Origin: Rhodopirellula sp. SM50
GTDB lineage: Bacteria > Planctomycetota > Planctomycetia > Pirellulales > Pirellulaceae
Direction: 5' to 3'
DNA length: 64,000 bases
NCBI RefSeq assembly: GCF_002289565.1
Contig: NZ_NTFY01000038.1
Coordinates: forward strand, 1-64,000
The notes under the pieces were generated by a model, which was not told where the DNA came from, ran no database searches, and saw only the letters and a program-made list of their open reading frames with translations. Position numbers and translations under genes: made by a program. Within the stretch, counting starts at the first letter, position 1. Every line of letters begins with the position of its first letter. Shown here one piece after another: positions 2,392 through 49,325 of the stretch.

Positions 2392-3804
2392 TCAACCATC
2401 CGGGCCATCGATCACGCGGGCGACGGCGAAGATCGTGTTGTCGTGCGGAATCGATTTGGCGTTCCACTGGAACCAGCGATAGTTGCCGCCGGAGTCCCGG
2501 TAGCGATTGCAGAACGCCACGATCGAATCGCCCTGGGCCAGCGTGCTGATCGCTTGGAGCGTTTGCTGGACGTCGTCGGGGTGGATGAATTCGATGAAGG
2601 GTTTGGAGATCAATTCGCCGTCGCTGTATCCCAACACCCGTGAGAAGTTCGAATTGACCCGTTTGAAGTAACCGTCCAAGCTGGCAATGCAGAACAGATC
2701 CATGCTGAGTTCGAAAAATCGGCACAGGTCGCGTTCGGCACGCTCCATCGACGATTCCACGTAGGCCGTAATTTGCGTCGCGATGGTCCCTGCGTCGGCC
2801 GGGCGGTCGCGTTCGTTTGGCGCCAAGCAGCGTTTGGCCAGCGCGATGATCGCCGGATCCGCGTCGCAGGCGTCCAGGCGTTGGTACGTTTTGTGGATGG
2901 AGCCTCGGGCGGCGCGACGATAAATCCGACGAAAGCTCGATCCTTCATAAGGCGGCTTGCCCGTCAGGATTTCGCACAGCAGCGCGCCCAAGCCGAAGAC
3001 GTCCGAACGCACGCTGATGTGATGACCCCGCGCCTGCTCCGGCGCCATGTAGCTCGGGGTGCCGATGATCTTGCTGTTGGACAAGATCATCGAGAGCTGC
3101 TCGTCGGAAATGTTTTCCACCGCAGCCGGGCTGATCGGGGTGAGCTCAATCGGGGACTTTCCCATGTGGCGACTCAATCCCCAATCCATCACGTGGACTT
3201 CGCCGTACGCGCCCACCATCACATTGGACGGCTTGATATCCAGGTGAATGGTCTGGTGCGCGTGTGCATAGGCGATCGTCTGGCAGACTCGGGCGAAAAC
3301 ATCCAGCAGACGCGAATGCTGGAGCTGGGTTTTGTTCTCCGTTTTCATCAACTCACTGAGCGTCCTGCCCTCGACCAGTTTCATCGCAAAGAAGGGCTGT
3401 CCGTCATCGCTGAACCCCATGTCGTAGACCGAGACGATCCCCGGATGCTGCAGCCGCGCGGTCGTGCGAGCCTCTTGGAAAAAACGCTGACGCGCTTCGT
3501 CTCGACCCTGGTAGTTCTGCAGCAAGACTTTGATCGCGACCTCCCGATCAAAGAGGCTGTCGTAGGCATGATAGACCAACCCCATGCCGCCTTTGCCGAT
3601 TTGTTTGTCGATCGCATACCGTTGCATCATGGCAACCGGTTGCTGCTCGCCATGGTCGTGATCGAAATCTCCCCCCGGCTCACTTCCCGCACGGTCTTTC
3701 GAGATCGATGCGGTGCGCGCCGACGAGCGGTTGGGGATCATGGATTCCGGATCCTCGTGATTCGGTTGCAGGTCAAAATCGCGGCAAATTTGGATCAAGG
3801 TCAT
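2392..3804 (-). CDS. Ser/Thr protein kinase with C-terminal PAS domain
   Basis: Cytosolic eukaryote-like (Hanks-type) kinase, 470 aa. The kinase domain starts near residue 63 with the glycine loop GKGGMGLVY and the ATP-binding lysine in VAIKVLL (~K92). The catalytic loop is HLDIKPSN (~187-194), keeping the Asp and Asn but with Leu for the Arg of HRD. The metal motif is DWG rather than DFG, as is common in planctomycete kinases. A TPSYMAPEQARG segment marks the activation loop end. After ~residue 365 comes a PAS domain (LFCIASLDGYFKRVNSNFSRVLGY and HPDDV), so the kinase probably responds to a small ligand or redox cue. No membrane segment follows the kinase domain, unlike PknB. The ATG at 3,804 has an AAGGAGG site 11 nt upstream; a start at 3,864 lacks one. 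It lies downstream of two histidine-kinase/REC genes on the same strand. Confidence 0.88.
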   Translation of the reverse strand: MTLIQICRDFDLQPNHEDPESMIPNRSSARTASISKDRAGSEPGGDFDHDHGEQQPVAMMQRYAIDKQIGKGGMGLVYHAYDSLFDREVAIKVLLQNYQGRDEARQRFFQEARTTARLQHPGIVSVYDMGFSDDGQPFFAMKLVEGRTLSELMKTENKTQLQHSRLLDVFARVCQTIAYAHAHQTIHLDIKPSNVMVGAYGEVHVMDWGLSRHMGKSPIELTPISPAAVENISDEQLSMILSNSKIIGTPSYMAPEQARGHHISVRSDVFGLGALLCEILTGKPPYEGSSFRRIYRRAARGSIHKTYQRLDACDADPAIIALAKRCLAPNERDRPADAGTIATQITAYVESSMERAERDLCRFFELSMDLFCIASLDGYFKRVNSNFSRVLGYSDGELISKPFIEFIHPDDVQQTLQAISTLAQGDSIVAFCNRYRDSGGNYRWFQWNAKSIPHDNTIFAVARVIDGPDG

Positions 3805-12095: not shown

Positions 12096-12725
12096 TCATC
12101 TCTTTTTTAATCGCGTGCGTTGCGTGTAGACGTAACCGTAGTCGCTCATCGCCTTCTCCGTTTCGGGGGATATCGGGCAATCTCTTTCGGTGTCGTACTC
12201 CCATCCAATCATTCCCGCCACGAAAAGGTCGCATCTCTGCTGATTGACTCGGTCGACCAACAATGGGACCAATGCTCGAAAATGTTGCTCATGAACATTG
12301 ATGGGCGCCGTCGCAGGTTTGTCGGGCTTTTCCGGCCTCCATACAGCGCAGGCAAAAGCTCTGTGGTCATCTTTCTGGAATTTCTGATGAATAGGATCAC
12401 CGAACATCTCTACGGCCGTCGGAAATGGCGACCATCTGATGGCTAGGCTAACGGGAGCGAGAGTCCGCAATATGCCGGGGGAGAACTTATGAATCGCATC
12501 AAAACGGTCTACGTGAACGGCCTGTTCTTCGATATCACATTGCGACCTCATCGCTGAGATTAATTCTGTCAATGGCGGGATTTCCAGGACGCCGCGATCA
12601 ATCGCACACAACCAATAAGCAAACGTCTTCTCGTAGTCATAGGTCCAGCGACATCGAAACGCCTCAAAGTCCCATTTTGCGGAATCCAGCATCTCTGCCC
12701 TACCAATAAATAAGGTTCCGATCAA
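12096..12725 (-). CDS. hypothetical protein (orphan, accessory region)
   Basis: 209 aa, no recognised domain, signal peptide or membrane helix. It begins MIGTLFIGRAEMLDSAKWDF and contains several Trp and aromatic residues (FRCRWTYDYEKTFAYW, SLAIRWSPFP). Codons end in A or T far more often than in neighbouring genes (for example tta, ttt, att, ggt), which suggests acquisition from elsewhere. It is on the opposite strand to the flanking efflux genes and next to repeat blocks on both sides. No partner gene was found. The long uninterrupted frame and natural amino-acid composition support a real gene, but no function can be given. Confidence 0.6.
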   Translation of the reverse strand: MIGTLFIGRAEMLDSAKWDFEAFRCRWTYDYEKTFAYWLCAIDRGVLEIPPLTELISAMRSQCDIEEQAVHVDRFDAIHKFSPGILRTLAPVSLAIRWSPFPTAVEMFGDPIHQKFQKDDHRAFACAVWRPEKPDKPATAPINVHEQHFRALVPLLVDRVNQQRCDLFVAGMIGWEYDTERDCPISPETEKAMSDYGYVYTQRTRLKKR

Positions 12726-12883
12726 TGCTCCAATCAGGATCTTACACGGGGTAGACTGAACGTTTCAGCCTGCCATCACAATCGGATGCGTGATGAGTCG
12801 CCAAGTCGTGGTTGTTGAAGGGGAAGATCGCTCGCGGCGATTGCATGATCCAATCCTTGGGAGTCGAGTGTCTGTTGATGTGT
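12726..12883. other. short gap before the long repeat
   Basis: 158 bp upstream of the orphan minus-strand gene; it should hold that gene's promoter, but no clear -10/-35 pair was recognised. Confidence 0.3.
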
Positions 12884-13046
12884 GAAGTGCACCCACGAGA
12901 TCAAAACGTGGGCTTGTACTGGGACGCTGATGAAGGGCGTGCAAGAGACTTCAGAAGCGGACGGTGAGGAGGGAGCGACGCTCGTAGCGAACTTGGGGCT
13001 TCGCGGATGCCCGGAGGGCAGACACTGTGTCTGCCGGCGGCGTGAG

Positions 13047-13315
13047 CCCAATGCCACGTCCTTTGACGCCAAGCGGGGTGTTTTTGTTAGCGGTAGGGCG
13101 CGAGCCCTCCGGTCTTTCACGGTGTTTTTGAAGCGCGACCGGACGGCTCGCGGGCTGTCGATTTTGTGAGCCGCGACGCGTAAGCGGCCGGGCACTGCGA
13201 CTCTGCCCGGGGCCTTACGGCCAGCGGCTCACCATTGACTCAGCAGATCCCGACTAAAACGACAGCCCGCTCGCGCCGTTCCGCTAACACCTTTAGGCCA
13301 AAGGACGTGGCATGG
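13047..13315. mobile_element. miniature inverted-repeat element inserted in the long repeat
   Basis: Non-coding 269-bp element (including a nested insertion) with 15-bp perfect terminal inverted repeats, atgccacgtcctttg (13,051-13,065) and caaaggacgtggcat (13,299-13,313). It is flanked by an 8-bp direct repeat ggcgtgag at 13,039-13,046 and 13,316-13,323. The uninterrupted repeat copy has the same 8 bases once (15,035-15,042), which is the empty site. It carries the TAGCGG...CCTCCGG palindrome inside. No transposase is encoded, so it would have been moved in trans. Confidence 0.82.
13152..13268. mobile_element. second miniature element nested in the first
   Basis: 117-bp insertion with terminal inverted repeats gggctgtcg and cgacagccc, and a further inner pair (gtgagccgc near 13,166 and gcggctcac near 13,224). 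It is flanked by a 6-7-bp direct repeat gctcgc(g) at 13,146 and 13,269. The family member at 49,249-49,322 reads through the same site with a single gctcgcg (49,302-49,308), showing the empty site. Non-coding. Confidence 0.75.
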
Positions 13316-13585
13316 GGCGTGAGCCGCCGGGTGAAAGTCTCCACTGCCGCGACAGCCCTGGAAGGGCGACACCGTCCATGCTGTGGCGACGCGCCGGCCC
13401 GCACTGTGTCGGCCTTTCTGGCCTGCGCCGGATCGGCATTTGAAGACCGGGCCCTGACGGACCCGGCAAGCACTCTGTCACCCCGCTGGGCTTTCGGAAT
13501 TCGCTGCGACCCCGTCCGGGATCGAGGGGAGGATGGGGGGCGTGGTCCGGAGGTGGCGCTGCGCTGACCTCCGGCTACTCGCTGT

Positions 13586-13692
13586 GGTCCCTTGGGGACG
13601 TCGATTTTTTGCTGTAGCTTTTGGCAACCGATTTAGTCTCTCTCCCTCTGGGAGAGACGGCGTTTGCGGAGCAAGCAAACGCCAGAGAGGGC
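13586..13692. repeat. interspersed repeat with CTCTCCCTCTGGGAGAG hairpin
   Basis: The segment ggggacgtcgattttttgct through tttagtctctctccctctgg recurs inverted at ~15,731-15,812. It is followed by cggcgtttgcggagcaagca, which recurs inverted at ~15,385-15,415. Positions 13,693-14,048 hold no gene that I can support, apart from the likely promoter region of the lipoprotein gene. Confidence 0.7.
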
Positions 13693-14880: not shown

Positions 14881-15324
14881 GAAGCGCACCCATGAGATCA
14901 AAACGTGGTTTGTATTGGGACGCTGATGAAGGGCGTGCAAGAGACTTCAGAGGCGGACGGTGAGGAGGGAGCGACGCTCGTAGCGAACTCGGGGCTTCGG
15001 TGATGCCCGGAGGGCAGGCACAGTGTCTGCCGGCGGCGTGAGCCGCCGGGTGAAAGTCTCCACTGCCGCGACAGCCCTGGAAGGGCGACACAGTCCATGC
15101 TGTGGCTACGCGCCGGCCCGCACTGTGTCGGCCTATCTGGCCTGCGCCGGATCGGCATTTGAAGACCGGGCCCTGACGGGCCCGGCAAGCATTCTGTCAG
15201 CCCGCTGGGCTTTCGGAATTCGCTGCGACCCCGTCCGGGGTGGAGGGGAGGATGGGGGGCGTGGTCCGGAGGTGGCGCTGCGGTGACCCCCGGCCGCTCG
15301 CTGCGATCCCTCCGGGACGTCGAT
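14881..15324. repeat. long dispersed repeat, copy 2 (intact)
   Basis: Uninterrupted counterpart of copy 1, beginning gaagcgcacccatgagatca about 40 bp after the lipoprotein stop. It holds the empty target site (ggcgtgag, 15,035-15,042) of the element that splits copy 1. Confidence 0.88.
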
Positions 15325-15384
15325 TGTATAAGTGACGGATTTGATCGTAACGGTAGGCGCCAAGACTTTGCAGCGCGAGCCCTC

Positions 15385-15830
15385 TCTGGCGTTTGCTTGC
15401 TGCGCAAACGCCGTCTCTCCCAGAGGGAGTTCTTCGTGGATTTTAGTGGGTAATCACTCAGGACCCAGGTTTTTTGAGGCATTGCTGCGATGTCCGAATG
15501 GGTGTTGGACGACAACCGCTCGGTTCAAACGCCGCTCCGGCGGCGCGGGCCGGTGGAGGGCACGAAGCACCTTCGCCGCATCGCAGACCAGGTGATTCCT
15601 AGGCGGGTTGCTCCTCCGCAGAGCCCGTCTCCGCTACAGCTGGCTTCGCCATCCTACCGAACAGAACCATCGGACATCGCAGTCATCCCTCAAAAAACCT
15701 TCCCCGAGTATCCGAGAGCAGCCACTAAATTCGCGGAAGAACCCCCAGACGGAGAGAAACTAAATGGGATGCCAAAAGCTGCAGCAAAAGAATCGACGTC
15801 CCCAGGGATGACATCGCCCCGGGATACTGT
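15385..15830. repeat. repeat-rich gap before the TolC-like gene
   Basis: Holds tggcgtttgcttgctgcgca and the CTCTCCCAGAGGGAG hairpin (15,385-15,430). An imperfect ~45-bp inverted repeat follows (gaggcattgctgcgatgtccg near 15,477 against cggacatcgcagtcatccctc near 15,671), which may mark a decayed ~250-bp element. The inverted copy of the 13,586 repeat lies at ~15,731-15,812. No gene is supported between 14,841 and 15,984. Confidence 0.65.
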
Positions 15831-15984: not shown

Positions 15985-18900
15985 GTGACGATGATGCTCC
16001 CAATGGCTCTCTCGTTTTCTCGCCGGGGTGTTTCGGTTTTGTCTCGCAATCCTCTTCTTTTGTGTTTCACGCTGCTGGTCGCTGTGTCGGCTTCGGTCAT
16101 CACAGGCTGCTCACGCAAGTATTACCGCACCCAGGCGGATCGCGACGTGGCGTTGATCTATGCCGAGAAGCGGGCCGAAGAGGCGTGCACGCTGCCGCCG
16201 CTGGCGGGCATCGACGTCGACCCCCGCTCCCGATTCTTTGATCCTTCGCCGGATGATTGCCCGGCTTTACCGGTGCCCGTGCCCCAACTATTCGGCTATG
16301 AACTTCCCGAACTTGTGACGGGTGATCCCCGTCAGACACCCCAGCGATCGGATCTAGAAACGCCTGAGGGAGTGGAGGAGTTGCCGGCACCGGATGTCGA
16401 GAGTTTGGAGTTGGGGCCGCTGGCGGGGGCCGGGAAACAGTCACGGTCGCAAACCGAGACGCGTTCCGCCGGTCACCCGGTCGCGTCGTCCTTCAGGCCT
16501 GTGGTCACGACAAGTCACGATTCGACCGCCCGCCGCGTCGCTCGACCCGACAACGGCGACGTTGCATCGGAATCGTCGACGGAGGTCGTTTCGTCGATCA
16601 GCGACATGGCTCTGGTGATGCCCCGGCCCGCAAACGCAGTCGAACCCGTCGTGCGTTTGGCACAACTGATCCGTGAGGACGCACAGAACGAAGACGCACA
16701 GAACGAAGACGCGGCGGATGAAGCCGACGGCATGGCCGACGATCGTCCCGACTGGGAATCCGACTGGGACCCGACCACGGACGACCGTTCTGGCACGGAG
16801 CAGTTGAGGATTGTCCCGATCCCGCAGCAGTTCTGGGAGCAGCTTCCCGAGACCTGCGTGCCGCGGATGCTGGAGTTCGAATCGGTTCGCAAGGAGTTTC
16901 GCCGGTCGTATCCCGACGTCACCTCCAACGGGCTGAAGGGGGTGCTCAGCGACGCGCCGCGATTGACGTTGCCGATGATCACCGAACTGGCGACGCTGAA
17001 CAATCGCGCGATCCAAACGCAAAAGGAGCGTTTGTATCGGGCGGCACTGGTGCTGTCGGCACAGCGTTACGAATACGTGCTTCGTCCGAGGCGACGTGGG
17101 AACGGTTCGGCCGTCAATTACACCCACGTTCGGCTGGACAGCACCACGCGGAACGGCTTGGTGATTCCGACCGAAACCGGGGTCCGGGCGACCACGGCGA
17201 TGGCCGGACAATTCCTGGCCAGTTTCGCCAACAGCGTGGTGTTTACGTTCAACGGACCGCAGGGGTTTGCCGCCAACATCGGGTCCGATCTGGTCTTTGA
17301 TTTTCAGCAGACGATTTTTCAACGCGACGTCGTTTTTGAAGGGCTGACACAAGCCGAGCGGAACGTCATCTATGTGGCGCGTGATCTGATCCGTGCCCAG
17401 CGTTCGCTGTTTGTCGATTTGGCGACCGACTACTACCAACTGTTGTTGACCTATCGCGCGATCGAGATCAGTTCCCAGGATTACTTCAGTAATCTACGGG
17501 CGTTCTTGCAGGGCAGGGCAGAGTACTTGCAAGCCGGTCGCATCCCGCGCGTGCAAGTGGACCAGTTTGAACAAAACGCGCTGGGCAGTCGCAGCTCGTT
17601 GGTCGGCGACTGCAACAGTTTGGAAAGTGCGCTCGACCGGTTGAAGTTGCGGATCGGTTTGCCGCCGGAGATGCCGCTGAATCTGAATCTGGAAGAACTC
17701 GAATCGCTGACGACCAGCGATGAACTGACGGTGACGCGACAGTTGGTGATGCGGACGCGGCAGACATTGCTCGACGCGGCGCAGACTCGCCTGGGTGATC
17801 GAGATGCCGCGGTCAACGGCGCGACGGTGCTGATCAATCGGCTGCGAGAAACCCTTCGCGTCCGCCGCAAGATCGAAGGGATCAGCGAGGAATCCGATGC
17901 CGAGCGTGAAACCGAGCAATTGGGACTGCGGCTGGCGTTGCTGGAAGCTCGGCTGCAAAGCGATCAGATGGAGTCGATTCGATCGCGAGAACTGAAGTCG
18001 GAATTGCCGCGGGAGCCGTTGATTCAATTTGCCCGCACGATCGATCTGGTCGAGTCGAAATTGTCGCAAGCTCAGCGGGCCACCTTGCTGCGACAGAATC
18101 TGGGGCTGGACAGCGACGTCGACGACGCGGTGGAAGTCGATCGGTTGGACGAGCGGTTTCAAAAACTGCGTCGCCGATGGGATGCGGCGATCGAAAGTCG
18201 GGAATTGAATCGCTTGCCCGAATTGGTTGAGGCGGCCAATGAGTTGCTGGAGTCCACGAACACCCTGACGGGGAAACTGGTCGGCGATCTGTTGCCCGCC
18301 GACGGCGTTGAACTGGAGAACGTGATCGTGCAGACGGTCGCCGATACCGTGGCGCTGGTCGATCGTGTGGAGACCAGTGATGTCGGCGGGCTGGATGAAG
18401 TGGAGGTCGAAGAGAACAGGGCGATGCTGTTGGCGCTTTATCAACGCTATGACCTGATGAATCGACGAGGCGAACTTGCCGACGATCGACGTCACATCAA
18501 ACTGGCCGCCGATGATCTGAGGGCGATTTTGGATGTTAGAGCGACCCAGACGTTGTCGGCGTTTCGGAGCGAAGAAGGCATCGTCGACTTTACGTCCGAC
18601 GGCGGAACCACGCGACTGGGGCTGTCGCTCGACACGCCACTGAACCGTCGTCTGGAACGCAACACTTACCGGGCCGCGCTGATCGATTACCAAGCCGGAC
18701 GCCGGGCGTTGATCGAATTGGAAGATCAAATCAAGCTCGCCGTTCGCGAAGACTTGCGACAGCTTCGTTTGCAACGCAACCAATATGAGATTTCGGTGGC
18801 TCGGGCGGCCCTCGCGTACGAACGCGTCGTCAGCACCCGTTTGCAGCTGCAGTTGGCCGTCGGGAACGTCGTCGCACGGGACTTTTTGGAAGCCCAGCAG

Positions 18901-49195: not shown

Positions 49196-49325
49196 AGGTG
49201 TTAGCGGTAGGGCGCAAGCCCTCCGGTCTTTCACACAAGGTGTTAGCGGTAGGGCGCGAGCCCTCCGGTCTTTCACGGTGTTTTTGAAACGCGACCGGAC
49301 GGCTCGCGCCGTTCCGCTAACCATG
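49196..49325. repeat. one and a half copies of the TAGCGGTAGGGCGCGAGCCCTCCGG repeat
   Basis: A partial copy at 49,198-49,239 and a full one at 49,246-49,322 are in tandem. The full copy (gttagcggtagggcgcgagc ... ctcgcgccgttccgctaac) preserves the site that is interrupted at 13,146-13,275. The rest of the 49,127-49,598 gap shows no gene; it probably holds the promoter of the Cys-rich protein gene. Confidence 0.82.

Follow-up and report, generated by a model that had tools for sequence, protein, structure and literature searches.

Organization of the repeat locus

The window, meaning the whole stretch of 64,000 nucleotides that was analysed, is part of contig C79 of the draft genome of a marine planctomycete (9.8 Mb in 146 contigs). 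It contains two copies of a long repeat, one of which is split by a short element (element A) that is itself interrupted by a shorter one (element B, Table 1). The gene at 15,985 has an outer-membrane-efflux match, with a best-segment identity of 92% to Planctomycetes bacterium TBK1r and 89% to Stieleria sedimenti, the closest named relatives, which makes the organism a planctomycete of the Stieleria/Rhodopirellula type. An earlier interpretation made from the letters of the window (the sequence-only reading) had proposed that the first copy of the long repeat is split and that the second shows the unfilled site. Alignment of the two copies over the spans given in Table 1 bore this out: with element A left out, 414 of 441 bases are identical, and the extra bases of the first copy all lie at one point. 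Folded as single-stranded DNA, the hairpin of the long repeat has the loop GTGA. A palindromic repeat of the CTCTCCC...GGGAGAG type is present in two inverted copies at 13640–13692 and 15378–15430, one behind each copy of the long repeat.

Element A can be read in two ways, as 269 bp flanked by the 8-bp direct repeat GGCGTGAG or as 271 bp flanked by the 6-bp repeat CGTGAG, which consists of the GTGA loop and one base on each side. Its ends, CCCAATGCCAC...GTGGCATTGGG, are inverted repeats in which 18 of 19 bases match. The 269-bp reading proposed earlier therefore stands as one of the two, while its 15-bp inverted ends are to be replaced by 18 matches in 19 bases, and its duplication may be 6 rather than 8 bp. 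Element B lies inside A, in the right arm of a TAGCGG palindrome pair, between direct repeats of GCTCGC. Its nesting in A and its interruption of the palindrome were described correctly in the sequence-only reading, but the duplication is 6 bp and not 7 bp, the seventh G of 'gctcgcg' being a coincidence in this arm only. An intact version of the palindrome, expected near 49,249, was located at 49,242–49,321. No ORF of at least 150 aa lies inside A or B in the window ORF list. The statement that the window lacks a transposase held among the ORFs examined, 36 of the 100 listed window ORFs of at least 150 aa, none of which showed a transposase family.

Table 1. Coordinates of the repeats, elements and duplications in the window, and loci with junctions of the multicopy insertion
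Feature	Position or locus	Strand	Remark
Long repeat, split by element A	12884..13601	+	about 440 bp without insert
Left target duplication of A	13039..13046	+	GGCGTGAG; CGTGAG if 6 bp
Element A	13047..13315	+	269 bp; 13,047–13,317 with symmetrical ends
TAGCGG palindrome pair in A	13086..13287	+	right arm split by element B
Left target duplication of B	13146..13151	+	GCTCGC
Element B	13152..13268	+	117 bp; ends GGGCTGTCG/CGACAGCCC
Right target duplication of B	13269..13274	+	GCTCGC
Right target duplication of A	13316..13323	+	GGCGTGAG
Long repeat, second unsplit copy	14881..15324	+	empty site CCGGCGGC-GTGA-GCCGCCGG
Intact TAGCGG palindrome pair, empty B target	49242..49321	+	outside any recognised A shell
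Multicopy insertion, left junctions	L062, L064, L069, L070, L072, L074, L075, L078, L101–L111, L117
Multicopy insertion, right junctions	L112–L116, L123, L172, L176

Element A is a multicopy family that carries the TAGCGG pair

The end of A has two matches in the window, against 0.01 expected from shuffled sequences, and 59 matches (at most 3 mismatches) in the 9.8-Mb genome of the organism itself (hereafter the own genome), against 3 for a reversed control. Of the own-genome A copies, 20 lie in fetched loci complete with their two ends and flanks, and the TAGCGG pair is present in all 20. These loci were chosen in part by a search in which the palindrome was included, and 30 of the 59 A-end places became loci, so that 20 of 20 is not a genome-wide census; the similarity search of the own genome scored 40 of 572 candidates, with at least 78 matches. 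A regularly includes the TAGCGG palindrome, a feature missed by the sequence-only reading, and the fetched own-genome loci yielded no A shell free of payload. B is present in seven of the 20 copies; of the 13 that lack it, 11 are 149–151 bp long.

An exact 6-bp duplication flanks 5 of the 20 copies (6 when one mismatch is allowed) and is missing from the other 15. The 8-bp reading is possible in four of these five, in which the preceding GG is common to the end of the element. In the fifth (L051), there is no 8-bp reading, and the match continues in the opposite direction, into the end of an adjacent A. The A target in the window spans the hairpin loop GTGA; the sites of the other copies are mixed, with no clear rule among the 20.

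Element B recurs at one base of the TAGCGG arm

A search of the own genome for the end of B gave 41 matches, against none for the control; a shorter pattern of the same end gave 71 against none, and GCNNGC followed by the B end gave 94 against 2. The search for further copies suggested with the sequence-only reading thus revealed that A (59 against 3) and B (41 against 0) are both multicopy families. B exists in at least three kinds, which share their ends and differ in the inner palindrome. Matches to B occur in 11 of 60 genomes, the own genome included. Near-full-length matches are found in the own genome, in G001, a complete genome of the same genus (a single contig of 10,975,817 bases), and in G003 and G004, and several of the other genomes have short palindrome pieces only. 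G001 contains 201 B-type ends.

Exact 6-bp duplications flank 34 of 62 recognised B copies, and 48 of the 62 have at most one mismatch, in a set that is partly target-selected. In the two-sided set selected by ends, the corresponding numbers are 22 and 28 of 36. The 62 copies are what is left of 72 end-defined rows once the 10 in which no payload was recognised are removed, and they count the B composite L074 twice (at 3,483 and 3,617). In the search for payload-free shells, eight short-spaced pairs of B-like ends were judged to be chance or internal to B. At three places (L080:3859-4096, L073:5860-6101 and L135:5682-5924), two B elements are arranged head to tail and separated by a single short hexamer, which looks as if the second B had used the duplication of the first.

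Analysis of the B ends found by the end pattern alone indicated that 50 of 70 border on the same base of a TAGCGG palindrome arm, 27 on the TAGCGG side and 23 on the CCGGT side, while 20 lie elsewhere. The loci were fetched partly by similarity to A, which makes the count by end pattern alone the fairest one. It comprises the 71 pattern matches minus one with too little outer flank, and it retains among the non-arm ends L121 and L129:11,522, which look like chance matches. Among the two-sided end-selected copies, 26 of 36 lie at this arm base, where arm membership requires at least 12 of 18 consensus positions; as background, such arms account for 10 of the 59 GCGAGC hexamers in the window (Fisher p about 9e-8). 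In the wider set, which is partly target-selected, 41 of 62 copies lie in an arm. Both orientations relative to the arm occur, 19 and 19 among 38 resolved copies and 14 and 8 of 22 in the end-selected set, and three payload kinds are found at the same arm base. The position of B is a recurrent, non-arbitrary target, used in either arm and in either orientation, which the sequence-only reading had missed.

Folded alone as single-stranded DNA, the TAGCGG arm gives a small hairpin whose loop of 4 nt is GCGA or TCGC. The 6-bp duplication of B consists of this loop and the two stem bases that follow it on the TAGCGG strand. The whole pair of 80 bases folds into one long stem with the B target in mid-stem, so that a loop reading is limited to the small arm hairpins. 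The partner arm is retained in 32 of the 41 arm-inserted copies; of the other nine, three have a further B-like sequence after them and six lack a partner in the adjoining 130 bases. These copies fit the use of a solitary arm or its partner's later loss. In the fetched own-genome loci, the TAGCGG arm has 173 matches outside B-type shells, the hairpin of the first B kind 28 and that of the third 25; the palindromes are therefore not cargo only.

Filled and empty sites in related genomes

Comparison with G001 revealed that A is absent at the orthologous locus, where the long repeat and the target hairpin are uninterrupted: window 12,689–13,048 (97%) and 13,316–13,651 (92%) align to abutting G001 bases. 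The long-repeat copy at 14,881 is also present in G001, inside a stretch that is 98% identical. At the corresponding spot in TBK1r, the long repeat is diverged (77–79%) and lacks A, and a B-like element of the third kind was recognised there by eye. Near the locus, 314 bp of the window (15430–15743) are absent at the G001 ortholog and are flanked by CCCAGAGGGAG/CCCAGACGGAG; overlapping DNA (window 15,414–15,757) has many matches of 88–98% elsewhere in G001.

For element B, an A-type element is common to the own genome (C105:185,950, L034) and G001 (C1:1,552,000-1,555,500, L217), with the left end and the palindrome pair preserved and the right end missing in both. In G001, its right arm contains a 117-bp B with flanks GCTCGA and GCTCGC, whereas in the own genome the arm is intact. 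Comparison of L056 with L219 likewise showed B in G001 only, with its right end and the rest of the arm lost. In the orthologous loci L015 (own genome) and L213 (G001), A and B are present in both. Insertion of B into A-borne palindromes therefore took place both before and after the split of the two species, given that L015/L213 are filled in both genomes and L034/L217 in G001 only.

Order of insertion and alternative explanations

The orthologous empty sites identify A and B as insertions, barring exact excision, and the view that the extra bases were inserted rather than lost from the other copies is supported by the absence of A at the G001 locus and by the B found in G001 only at L034/L217. 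That the empty copies arose by exact deletion of once-filled sites, through precise excision between the duplications, is extremely improbable. Deletion between short repeats does occur here: the G001 ortholog lacks window 12241–12688, a segment with the direct repeat GCATCTCTGC at its borders, and the absence is probably a deletion in G001. However, empty states are found in G001 for A, in the own genome for B, in the second long-repeat copy and in the 13 of 20 A copies without B, and each empty site would need an exact deletion that also removed one duplication. The order long repeat, then A, then B proposed in the sequence-only reading is upheld as far as nesting and insertion are concerned, but its last step, the entry of B after A had landed at this place, does not follow, given the A copies with B (7 of 20). 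B may instead have entered A elsewhere, with A and B then moving into the long repeat as one composite, a history to which we give a substantial chance, though somewhat below even. Copies of A with B are also present in G001, L213 being orthologous to L015 of the own genome, and in the copy at C113 the arm and orientation of B are those seen in the window. Against a single composite, the arm and orientation of B inside A vary between copies, indicating that B entered A more than once, and a tree of the A shells leaves the placement of the window copy unsettled.

Two further explanations concern the palindromes themselves. The same layout of palindrome and B in many copies would be expected if B came to lie at the palindrome through joint copying of palindrome-plus-B units, without any choice of site. 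We regard this as improbable, since B occurs in both arms and in both orientations (19 and 19 of 38), three payload kinds share one base, and a shared palindrome has B in G001 and lacks it here. It is very improbable that, conversely, short palindromes (REP dimers) were inserted into the shells, the latter being targets and not transposon ends. REP dimers within palindromes are described from other bacteria (PMC3733652), but here no payload-free A shell was found, the eight short-spaced B-like end pairs were judged to be chance or internal to B, and the duplications lie at the outer edges of the shells and not of the palindromes.

Transposase search and further tiers of insertion

In the fetched sequence, which covers part of the draft own genome, B-like ends with matching 6-bp flanks form 11 long pairs. 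Three of these 11 intervals were read for an autonomous parent of B and rejected, their ORFs being ordinary by eye (ribosomal-protein-like, peptidase-like and transporter-like). No longer element with B ends was found in twenty G001 stretches around unpaired or widely spaced B ends; in L216, L219, L221 and L224 of G001, one B end only was recognised. The enzyme class is assigned by analogy, because no transposase with matching ends was found in the three long end-pair intervals and the twenty G001 stretches.

The own genome has eight Y1-transposase matches. One of them, the Y1 gene at C99:7,211, has inverted pairs of the long repeat's hairpin family on both sides, and the hairpin of the long repeat thus flanks a RAYT gene (1 of 8 Y1), as REP/REPIN sequences do. 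In L081:1050-2400 (G000:C99), the Y1 (RAYT-like) gene of this contig lies between two clusters of inverted GCCGGTGGCGTGAGCCACCGG hairpins of the long-repeat hairpin family. TAGCGG arms were found within about 1.5 kb of none of the eight Y1 matches in the own genome, and a RAYT origin of the TAGCGG pair is accordingly unsupported.

B-type hairpins are themselves the site of a multicopy insertion. All 20 left junctions lie at one base, GGCCGCT|CGTATAACG, and the eight right junctions agree with one another, with no duplication beyond 1–2 bases. The contigs end about 80–100 bases inside this insertion, at assembly breaks. A search for its body in other genomes gave no recognisable element: the G003 end stops at a contig end, and G002 and G005 have short partial matches. 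IS110 was rejected as a candidate, as PF02371 has two own-genome matches (C92 and C83), neither of which is among the 20 junction contigs.

Proposed mechanism

Both elements have several of the features by which MITEs are recognised. Terminal inverted repeats are present in A (18 of 19 bases; 59 genome matches against 3 for the control) and in B, each is bounded by a target-site duplication (CGTGAG to GGCGTGAG for A here), and both are short and without a transposase gene (A 269–271 bp, B 117 bp). As is established for such elements, inverted ends together with a duplication of fixed length suggest a DDE-type transposase acting in trans. By analogy with such systems, A and B, with inverted ends, a short duplicated target and no gene, would presumably be moved in trans by DDE-type transposases. 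We consider it likely that A and B are non-autonomous MITE-type transposons, with B recurrent at TAGCGG arms through a palindrome-reading enzyme, and that they supply new landing pads. The enzyme may read the sequence or the shape of repeated extragenic palindromes. Each insertion would land in expendable DNA and supply a new landing pad, leading to nesting: A regularly brings the TAGCGG pair and B one of at least three other palindromes, and the B-type palindromes are in turn the fixed site of the further multicopy insertion. If the hairpin is indeed what is read, an enzyme that leaves fixed duplications would make a narrow, shape-related choice of target.

A wider scheme, in which loop-reading machinery moves elements that bring hairpins with them in a self-extending hierarchy, from a RAYT-type repeat to A, to B and to the site-specific insertion, is speculative and on balance unlikely; if true, it would explain the growth of planctomycete intergenic repeats by nesting. 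The locus provides a base-exact record of how a cluster of intergenic repeats is built in large planctomycete genomes, and the differences between two sister genomes in which sites are filled or empty make it possible to test the order of events.

Comparison with known systems

Among REP-targeted non-autonomous elements, of which A is a candidate member, B occupies one recurrent position in a REP-like palindrome (50 of 70 ends; 26 of 36 two-sided copies), similar to IS1397, ISKpn1, IS621, ISPsy8, ISPa11, ISPpu9/10 and ISRm22, which have a fixed insertion point inside a repeated extragenic palindrome. In PMC1525189, ISPsy8 is described as entering the REP hairpin at its symmetry axis with a 3-base repeat. 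These insertion sequences carry transposase genes, whereas A and B have none, bring their own palindromes and are nested, and the duplication of B is 6 bp. Similar to A and B, the bacterial MITEs RUP, NEMIS, ERIC, Nezha and others (PMC3733652) are 70–300 bp long and non-coding, with inverted ends and a target duplication. B is largely confined to one base of one palindrome family. No MITE that targets a REP palindrome and carries another is described in the open-licence literature, as far as covered by excerpts including those of PMC1525189, PMC3733652 and PMC2817692.

REP/REPIN sequences with their RAYT genes resemble the present case in their paired inverted intergenic hairpins, and the hairpin family of the long repeat flanks one of eight Y1 genes. 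Unlike REP/REPIN, A and B have terminal inverted repeats and duplications, and TAGCGG arms lie near none of the eight Y1 matches (1.5 kb). PMC3733652 names R. baltica as rich in tyrosine transposases and repeats, and it reports that A. variabilis, T. roseum and H. neapolitanus have REP dimers inside palindromes, where a palindromic repeat is likewise nested inside another palindrome. In contrast to these REP dimers, the inner unit in the case of A and B possesses ends and a duplication of its own, and the outer palindrome serves as its target, as shown by the orthologous empty sites.
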